Below, in pieces: positions 50,095 to 52,392 of a DNA stretch of 64,000 bases. Position 1 is the first letter of the stretch, and every line of letters begins with the position of its first letter. The notes under the pieces were generated by a model, which was given only the letters and a program-made list of their open reading frames with translations, was not told the origin of the DNA and did not search any database. The position numbers and the translations under genes are program-made. Origin of the DNA: a bacterium (GTDB taxonomy: Bacteria > SZUA-79 > Acidulodesulfobacterales > Acidulodesulfobacteraceae). The stretch covers positions 1 through 64,000 of the forward strand of contig DAHVNW010000001.1 of the NCBI GenBank assembly GCA_027319095.1, given 5' to 3'.

Positions 50095-50220
50095 TAATCC
50101 GTTGTTTATATATCTGAAGCTATTTTCTTAAACGTTCCTGTCGGCAATTTTTGGTATATATTGGTATATAATAAATATAATAAATTTTAATTCAATATAT
50201 TTTCAGGAGGGGGTTTTTTT

Positions 50221-50610
50221 ATGAAAAAAGGTTTAACGGTCGTTTTTATCGTTCTCGTAATAGTTTTAGGATACGTTGCGGTTCACGCCCTTACCGCGCC
50301 CGTCAAATTATCAGCAGCTCAACTCGGCGGACAGCTTATTCATTCCAATAAAAAAGGCATAGATTGTCTTGCATGCCATACGATAGGCAAAAAAGGCGGA
50401 AACGTCGGACCAGATCTTTCCAAAGAGGGAACGCTGAAACATTCGGTTAAATGGATAGAAGTCCAGATAGCTACTCCGGCAAAGCATTTTAAAATGGGGC
50501 AGATGGTAAAAATAAGCGGCAAAAGCTATATGGCTATCATGCCCGACCACAAGATGCTTTCGAAGAAAGAGCTTTTTGATTTAGCGTCTTATTTGGATTC
50601 GCTTAAATAA
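50221..50610 (+). CDS. Small monoheme c-type cytochrome, membrane-anchored or secreted
   Basis: 129 residues. N-terminal membrane/signal segment (5-25, LTVVFIVLVIVLGYVAVHAL) without a clear cleavage site, so it may stay anchored. One heme site CLACH (Cys49, Cys52, His53) is followed by GPDLSKEG, and the C-terminal YMAIMPDHKMLSKKELFDLASYLDSL gives the distal Met in the class I pattern. A very strong AGGAGGGGG ribosome site lies upstream. About 320 bases downstream is a Cyc2-like porin-cytochrome; this small cytochrome could accept its electrons in the periplasm (inference). Confidence 0.9.
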   Translation: MKKGLTVVFIVLVIVLGYVAVHALTAPVKLSAAQLGGQLIHSNKKGIDCLACHTIGKKGGNVGPDLSKEGTLKHSVKWIEVQIATPAKHFKMGQMVKISGKSYMAIMPDHKMLSKKELFDLASYLDSLK

Positions 50611-50740
50611 CGGCATGATAAAAGATAAAAACTTCCGGCATATCAATATCCGGTATTATATGTAATTAAGCGATGGGGCTTTTAAAGATTGCGCATAAAA
50701 TTGCGGATTAAAGAAAAAAATAAAAAGAGGAATTTATATG

Positions 50741-50769
50741 TTGACAATCGTCAATTTTAGATATATATA
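50741..50769 (+). promoter_or_regulatory. Promoter with embedded palindrome before the Cyc2-like gene
   Basis: TTGACA (50741-50746), 17 bases, then TATATA (50764-50769). The -35 box begins the palindrome TTGAC-AATC-GTCAA (50741-50754), a possible operator. It sits in the 316-base gap 50611-50926. The gap also holds strong ribosome-site-like runs (AAGGAGGTGAAGGAGG, about 50813) that precede a possible 20-codon frame from ATG 50843; this small frame is unproven. Confidence 0.5.
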
Positions 50770-50926
50770 TTAATATATATATAATAAATGAAAATAGTAT
50801 AAAAATCTTTTAAGGAGGTGAAGGAGGAAAGAGATTTAAAGCATGCGGTTTGCAGTAGGTTGTAAAAACTTGTCTTATTATTATCTAATTGGTTTTCAAT
50901 TTTAAATTTGAAGAGAGAGGAAAATT

Positions 50927-52333
50927 ATGAAAAAGAAACTAATAATAACCATGATTGCTTTGTTCGTCCTGGCGGCTTCCTTTGCGATGGTTCCCAGAAA
51001 AGCGAACGCAATCCCGGCTTTTGCACAAAAGTATCATTTTTCATGCGCGGTTTGCCACACGGTTTTTCCAAATCTTAACCCGTTTGGAAGAGCATTTTGG
51101 AGAAACGGTTTCAGGCTTCCGGATACAGACGGAACTCCTTCGGACGCAACTCAGATTACCGAAGGCTTAAGCCTTCCAAATCCTTGGCCTATACCTGTAA
51201 TGGTCGAGCCTATAATCGGATATACGCATGTAACCAATGAGAATGTCAGCGCCAGCACCGATGCATTCAGTTCGGAATTTGACTTCGTTGCCGCAGGAGC
51301 TTTTAAAATATATACCCCGTTTGCAAATTCGATTTCGTTTTACGTACATGCAAATACAGGCAGCGGCACAATGAAACAGAAACAGGTATTTGCGTCCATT
51401 AACGGTTTAGGTTCTGGTTTTGGCGTTGCGTCCCACTTGTTTAATTTGAAACTCGGACAGGTTACGACCGCAAGTCCTTATTTCTACAGGCAGATACCGT
51501 TCTATACCATCGGCCCTTCCAGCGGCGGACCGGTAGGAAACGGACAAGGATTAGATGTCGGACTTGACGGCGAATCCGGCGCCCTTATTCATTCCAGAAA
51601 CGCAGGCATTGCTCTTTACGGAACGCCGGGCTATCATTTATGGTATAAAGTAACGGTTACTAATGATAATCCATCGACGCCGACATATTCAGGATCTTCT
51701 CCATATGGTGAGGCAACGGGTAATTCTGCTAGCAACGCAATGGAATATTCTTATCAGTTAAAGGAATATTACCAGGTTCCCGTAGGACAGCTTGAGTTCG
51801 GTTATTACGGCGCAACGATAGGCGAGCCTATAACGGTTCCCTTAAGTACTACCGCCAGTACTACCTGGACGGACGGCATTCAAATTAACGGCGTGGACGT
51901 CGACCTTGCAAACGACATTTACGAACTTGGTTTGACTTACATGCAGCAGCACGATTCCAATCCTTACGATAATACCAGTTACGATGGCCATTCGACAAAC
52001 GGCTATAGTAATTTCGAGGTTTACGGAAGATATTTAATGCCGCAAATCGGACAGGGCTTAATGCTAATGGCCGATTATGCCACATATAGCTGGATGCACA
52101 AAGGCGCGGAGGAAGCGTTTAACGGTACCGTAACCAGCTGTTCCAACGCCGGATTATACGAGTTTGGAACATACGCTTCTTCTAACGGCTGCACCAACGA
52201 AGGCATAAAGGATGCCTTCGCAATTCAGGCCGAATACAACTTGGCTTATAATGCGCATCTTTATCTTGCATATATATTTACCAACAAATCGCAGGACAAC
52301 TCGCTCGGTACCGGTCTCGACTTTGCTTTCTAA
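50927..52333 (+). CDS. Cyc2-like fused monoheme cytochrome and outer-membrane porin
   Basis: 468 residues. Signal peptide 1-28 (cleavage after KANA), then one heme site CAVCH (Cys40, Cys43, His44) in the context IPAFAQKYHFSCAVCHTVFP followed by LNPFGRAFWRNGFRL. The remaining 400 residues are rich in Gly, Ser, Tyr and alternating aromatic residues, as in beta barrels, and end in Phe (GLDFAF), the usual outer-membrane assembly signal. This layout is that of Cyc2, the outer-membrane Fe(II) oxidase of iron oxidisers, and of related cytochrome-porins whose roles are unknown. A strong terminator follows. Iron oxidation is an inference. Confidence 0.78.
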   Translation: MKKKLIITMIALFVLAASFAMVPRKANAIPAFAQKYHFSCAVCHTVFPNLNPFGRAFWRNGFRLPDTDGTPSDATQITEGLSLPNPWPIPVMVEPIIGYTHVTNENVSASTDAFSSEFDFVAAGAFKIYTPFANSISFYVHANTGSGTMKQKQVFASINGLGSGFGVASHLFNLKLGQVTTASPYFYRQIPFYTIGPSSGGPVGNGQGLDVGLDGESGALIHSRNAGIALYGTPGYHLWYKVTVTNDNPSTPTYSGSSPYGEATGNSASNAMEYSYQLKEYYQVPVGQLEFGYYGATIGEPITVPLSTTASTTWTDGIQINGVDVDLANDIYELGLTYMQQHDSNPYDNTSYDGHSTNGYSNFEVYGRYLMPQIGQGLMLMADYATYSWMHKGAEEAFNGTVTSCSNAGLYEFGTYASSNGCTNEGIKDAFAIQAEYNLAYNAHLYLAYIFTNKSQDNSLGTGLDFAF

Positions 52334-52364
52334 TCCGGTTCGTATAAGTTAAACCAAAAATTAC

Positions 52365-52392
52365 GGCGGGGGCATCGACCCCCGCCTTTTTT
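52365..52392 (+). terminator. Strong rho-independent terminator after the Cyc2-like gene
   Basis: GGCGGGGG (52365-52372), loop CATCGA, CCCCCGCC (52379-52386), then TTTTTT. It is the clearest terminator in the window and isolates the cytochrome gene from the polysaccharide cluster. Confidence 0.93.

Follow-up and report, generated by a model that had tools for sequence, protein, structure and literature searches.

Introduction

As a marker gene, Cyc2 is taken to indicate iron oxidation by microbes. Its published signature combines AxPxFAR[Q/K][T/Y], CxxCH and PxL (Keffer et al. 2021, PMC8406198), and the Cyc2 proteins that have been tested biochemically oxidize Fe(II), with the authors of that survey also regarding additional functions as possible (PMC8406198). 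In Acidithiobacillus ferrooxidans, the accepted Cyc2 oxidation chain ends in cytochrome c oxidase. Cyc2 of this organism has also been proposed as a terminal Fe(III) reductase (PMC7735108, PMC8790237), and a stand-alone two-gene cluster, Cyc1B/Cyc2B, rises during anaerobic Fe(III) respiration (PMC7735108). Closer to the organism described here, Tan et al. (2019) reported cyt572-like genes in all four of the Ca. Acidulodesulfobacterales genomes that they described (AP1–AP4) and inferred Fe(II) oxidation from them; in AP4, one such gene ranked within the 20 transcripts of highest abundance, and nifU, iscS and sirA-like genes also appeared in the list of top transcripts (PMC6776010).

The window (the whole 64,000 nt stretch of DNA analyzed, from contig DAHVNW010000001.1) belongs to an uncultured acid-mine bacterium of Ca. 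Acidulodesulfobacterales (SZUA-79), an order now placed in its own phylum (NCBI). It carries a small cytochrome gene followed by a gene for a Cyc2-like cytochrome-porin, and the features of this locus are as follows.

50205–50211, plus strand: ribosome-binding site AGGAGGG of the small cytochrome gene (sequence)
50221–50610, plus strand: class I monoheme cytochrome c, 129 aa, with CLACH and a signal peptide or anchor (PF00034)
50741–50769, plus strand: promoter-like TTGACA-17 nt-TATATA upstream of the porin gene (sequence, relatives)
50803–50837, plus strand: leader element, a small A+T-rich stem with AAGGAGGTG in the loop (sequence, relatives)
50927–52333, plus strand: Cyc2-like fused cytochrome-porin, 468 aa (sequence, alignments, profile match, model, fold search)
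50927–51010, plus strand: signal peptide MKKK...AMVPRKANA, with cleavage expected before IPAF (judged from sequence reading)
51044–51058, plus strand: heme-binding CAVCH, residues 40–44, with AIPAFAQKYHFS before it and TVFPNL after it (sequence)
51197–52324, plus strand: porin part, 16 predicted beta strands, residues 91–466 (AlphaFold2 model)
52365–52392, plus strand: intrinsic terminator GGCGGGGG-CATCGA-CCCCCGCC plus T run (sequence)

The Cyc2-like porin

The original prediction described a 468-aa protein with a signal peptide, a single CxxCH and a terminal Phe, and all of these are present in the sequence. The one CxxCH lies within IPAFAQKYHFSCAVCHTVFPNLNPFGRAF, near the N terminus of a protein whose secretion was judged by sequence reading, and is invariant across three alignments (A1, A4, A5). 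The block around it, AIP[AS]F[AS][QE]KYHFSCAVCHTxFPNLNPFGR, is almost invariant among 25 aligned orthologs, and every one of these ends in Phe. A PxL follows four residues past the CxxCH (CAVCHTVFPNL), and the length of 468 aa is well within the range given for Cyc2 (at least 365 aa). The protein thus shares with Cyc2 of A. ferrooxidans and Mariprofundus ferrooxydans PV-1 the signal peptide, the single CxxCH near the mature N terminus, the position of PxL, a length of more than 365 aa and a predicted 16-strand porin.

The strict AxPxFAR[Q/K][T/Y] motif is absent. The host sequence is AIPAFAQKY, and in all 25 aligned orthologs the arginine is replaced by glutamine (glutamate in one), so the family reads AxPxFAQKY where the published description of Cyc2 has arginine. 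Since the change occurs in every ortholog, a strict application of the published Cyc2 filter would reject the whole clade. The same strict motif is found in 13 of 19 distant Cyc2-like proteins sampled. When the family profile was aligned with a profile of these 19 proteins (hhalign), the match had a probability of 99.9 and an E value of 2.7e-33, and it covered 295 columns, extending well into the barrel. Searches of Pfam, NCBIfam and PDB sequences gave no useful match for the 468-aa protein, and plasmid records gave only weak, N-terminal matches, in Methylocystis and Caballeronia. In a phylogenetic tree, the porin sequences of the order group together with full support at the end of a long stem, a point of difference from Cyc2, but the exact neighbors of the clade are unsure because the tree contains several long branches.

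The AlphaFold2 model (mean pLDDT 68.4, pTM 0.67) has 16 strands, predicted with moderate confidence and consistent with a 16-strand outer-membrane porin domain, and in the PDB, Foldseek matches it best to general porins, OmpU and PorB among them (lowest E value 5.7e-12; TM about 0.6 when normalized by target length; rmsd near 7). A 16-strand barrel holding a heme had been expected of the structure; the strands appear in the model, but the heme segment (residues 22–87) is modeled at low confidence (pLDDT <50). Motif, length, signal peptide, predicted strands and profile match all point the same way, and there is little doubt that the protein is a Cyc2-like outer-membrane heme porin, as originally proposed. 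The label Cyc2-like cytochrome-porin is preferred to Cyc2 in the strict sense.

The small cytochrome and its linkage to the porin

The upstream gene had been described as a small class I cytochrome with a very strong ribosome site, and both points hold: AGGAGGG precedes the start codon, and the product matches PF00034 over the Pfam cut-off (E 4.9e-7). Orthologs in the host family share 68–85% identity with it. SoxX was considered as an identity for this protein and rejected, the score against TIGR04485 being 35.7 bits where the cut-off is 61. A second copy of the neighborhood, reaching up to apt and the small cytochrome and of lower identity, occurs on another contig of the same assembly (C129, L092); since this syntenic block is of lower identity and stops at the contig edge, it is probably a homologous contig that another strain or species contributed to the metagenome-assembled genome (MAG).

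Both open reading frames lie exactly at 50221–50610 and 50927–52333 on the plus strand. In all 20 loci of named relatives that hold both genes, they have the same order and the same strand, with identities of 74–85% for the cytochrome and 62–82% for the porin. This conservation, together with the terminal Phe of all the aligned porin orthologs, argues that the pair is more than a chance arrangement. The gap between the genes is 262–389 bp in 11 of the 20 loci and 2.4–3.7 kb in the other nine, where iscS-, iscU- and tusA-like genes (names from sequence reading) are located in the gap. Because the porin gene has its own promoter, and about half of the relatives have the longer gap, the two genes are linked neighbors and not a strict operon, and the two-gene locus first envisaged is to be corrected in this respect. 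The 129-aa cytochrome is likely the periplasmic partner of the porin, a functional partnership that we infer from the linkage of the genes. The arrangement resembles Cyc1B/Cyc2B of A. ferrooxidans, compared here by description, in being a stand-alone pair of cytochrome and Cyc2, and differs from it in that the partner here is a monoheme class I cytochrome encoded upstream of the porin gene. Unlike Cyc2 of A. ferrooxidans and PV-1, the host porin has no adjoining rus, cup or cox.

The promoter-like sequence ahead of the porin gene is not listed by a consensus scanner because its second hexamer ends in A; TTGACA-17-TATAAA is found at this place in 11 of 21 relatives. Within the promoter-to-start region (50741–50926) there is a leader of about 150 nt, containing AAGGAGGTG about 100 nt before the porin start codon. 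This sequence is a perfect anti-SD complement and is the sole copy in the window. Of 22 loci, 21 have GGAGG[TC]G ahead of the porin gene, and the stem is found mainly among close relatives. The element could be an mRNA stabilizer or a ribosome standby site. Rfam detected no RNA family within the locus. The strong terminator said to close the locus was borne out, with a hairpin of eight GC pairs at 52365–52386 followed by TTTTTT.

Distribution and paralogs in the order

Porin matches were found in 28 of the 30 genomes of the host family; most are full length with 65–77% identity, and several shorter ones are truncated where the contig stops. Among the carriers are Candidatus Acididesulfobacter diazotrophicus AP1 (L118, SGBB01000015) and SZUA-79 (L135). 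The AP1 genome has a single member of the porin family, so the cyt572-like gene reported for AP1 by Tan et al. is very probably the ortholog of the 468-aa porin. Relatives of the porin gene have therefore already been reported in this lineage, and the idea of iron oxidation is not new there. The AP1–AP4 genes come from the same order as the host, and the AP1 ortholog lies in the conserved neighborhood, but the species are different and the inference of Tan et al. was of Fe(II) oxidation only. Outside the lineage, Cyc2-like proteins were detected in 38 of 290 sampled unrelated genomes.

Some relatives carry additional Cyc2-like paralogs. One lies beside multiheme cytochromes, with genes for Rieske and cytochrome b coming next (L102, G004:C1, 1225–14001), and another is beside a TtrABC/NrfD-like cluster, among cytochromes with several heme motifs (L057, G010:C25); such a setting may represent a larger extracellular electron transfer cluster. 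In L101, the paralog lies between bd oxidase and NO reductase genes. A further paralog type, with the altered heme segment CAVCHINGYGGGASLNPFGRA, is found in L131 and L132 (also L097 and L098), where its neighbors are a class I cytochrome of 112 aa and a two-component system.

Respiratory genes of the genome and family

No oxidase or quinone complex is present in the ORF list of the window, in agreement with the original prediction. At the genome level, neither a cytochrome c oxidase nor a bd oxidase was found in the 97% complete MAG (168 contigs), from which an oxidase could be missing through incomplete assembly. The only full-length COX1-family protein of this genome, of 764 aa, was considered as an oxidase and rejected, as it is a quinol NO reductase (PDB 3ayf, E 1.2e-177). 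No cytochrome c oxidase was found in 27 of the 30 family genomes, AP1 among them, and cbb3 (ccoN plus a FixO/CcoP-type cytochrome) is present in the remaining three (G012, G019 and G022). The lack of a cytochrome c oxidase is thus repeated across relatives and goes beyond a single 97% draft. Of 19 family genomes tested for bd oxidase, 16 gave a match, which in one case is a fragment, and Tan et al. also take bd to be the terminal oxidase in their bins.

Cytochrome b is encoded in 25 of the 30 family genomes, including that of the window, where its gene lies on contig C81 next to those for Rieske and for a membrane protein that carries a single heme motif. This membrane protein (L140, 8800–10332) has 510 aa and no family match, and probably forms the c-type subunit in what would be an unusual bc complex. 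The genome also encodes a diheme c cytochrome, about ten class I cytochromes and, on contig C96, the large subunit of an uptake-type NiFe hydrogenase. On contig C44 (L089, 8509–19857; L090, 568–1308), a cytochrome d1-domain protein is encoded within a TtrABC-like Mo enzyme cluster, which may be an alternative outlet for cytochrome c. Its TtrA-like molybdopterin enzyme has a CxxCH and is accompanied by NrfD-type and 4Fe-4S subunits, and the cluster further holds a radical SAM-like protein and several class I cytochromes.

Direction of electron flow

The anatomy of the porin, its conservation across the family and the gene linkage are computed observations, as is the failure to detect a cytochrome c oxidase. 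The partner of the porin is very likely iron. The locus had been put forward as a path for taking up electrons from outside the cell; this is not established, since the known oxidation chain relies on a cytochrome c oxidase, an enzyme that the host genome was not found to contain. That absence favors Fe(III) reduction over Fe(II) oxidation. Given a bc complex and c-type cytochromes but no cytochrome c oxidase, the most sensible path is outward, to Fe(III), and we hold this at about even confidence to be the main role of the porin in the host organism. Donors such as H2 or reduced sulfur would reduce quinone, the bc-type complex of contig C81 would pass electrons to c-type cytochromes, the 129-aa cytochrome would carry them to the porin heme, and the heme would then reduce Fe(III) outside the cell. 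Several points count against this: the heme domain is modeled poorly and the motif departs from that of Cyc2 at one position, the MAG is incomplete, three relatives have cbb3 and most have bd, and cytochrome c has other potential outlets, such as the cluster on C44.

The opposite direction is a serious but less probable reading, in which Fe(II) would pass electrons to the porin heme and on through the small cytochrome and the periplasmic cytochrome pool to an inner-membrane acceptor, while some are driven energetically uphill by way of bc for NADH formation. Quinol is the electron source of bd oxidase, and at low pH electrons from Fe(II) reach quinol only by uphill transport. The quinol potential is far below that of Fe(III)/Fe(II) at low pH, so bd is no possible sink for this chain, and a cytochrome c oxidase was found neither in the genome of the window nor in that of AP1. 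Fe(II) oxidation is nevertheless the function of characterized Cyc2 (PMC8406198), which also counts against outward use, and three relatives have cbb3. Further support comes from the cyt572-like genes in four bins, the high transcript level in AP4 and an abundance that correlates with ferrous iron (PMC6776010), but the last of these would be equally expected of an Fe(III) reducer. Reversible exchange, with Fe(II) oxidized in those strains or at those times that have cbb3 and oxygen and Fe(III) reduced under anoxic conditions, would fit the retention of the same porin where cbb3 is patchy in the genus and family, and dual use has been proposed for A. ferrooxidans as well; the host's own genome shows no sink for the oxidation branch, and this reading is unlikely. 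If the heme porin had no respiratory role and instead, for example, sensed or transported metals or other redox substrates, this would fit the occurrence of Cyc2-like proteins in unrelated genomes and the additional functions allowed by the survey authors (PMC8406198). This reading is very improbable given the near-universal conservation in a lineage of iron-rich acid mine drainage, the cytochrome neighbor and the high cyt572-like transcription in AP4 (PMC6776010).

Implications

Returning to Fe(III) reduction, its extension beyond the host is more tentative: in most of an order that is abundant in acid mine drainage, a Cyc2-type porin might serve as the terminal Fe(III) reductase, at the end of an anaerobic chain running from quinol through the bc complex and the small cytochrome to the porin, in organisms without cytochrome c oxidase. 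If this is true, Cyc2-like genes in metagenomes could not be used as markers of Fe(II) oxidation. The R-to-Q change would drop the lineage from the published sequence filter. A lineage with a near-universal Cyc2-like porin, and mostly without cytochrome c oxidase, provides a clean case in which to examine whether the marker may stand for the opposite reaction.
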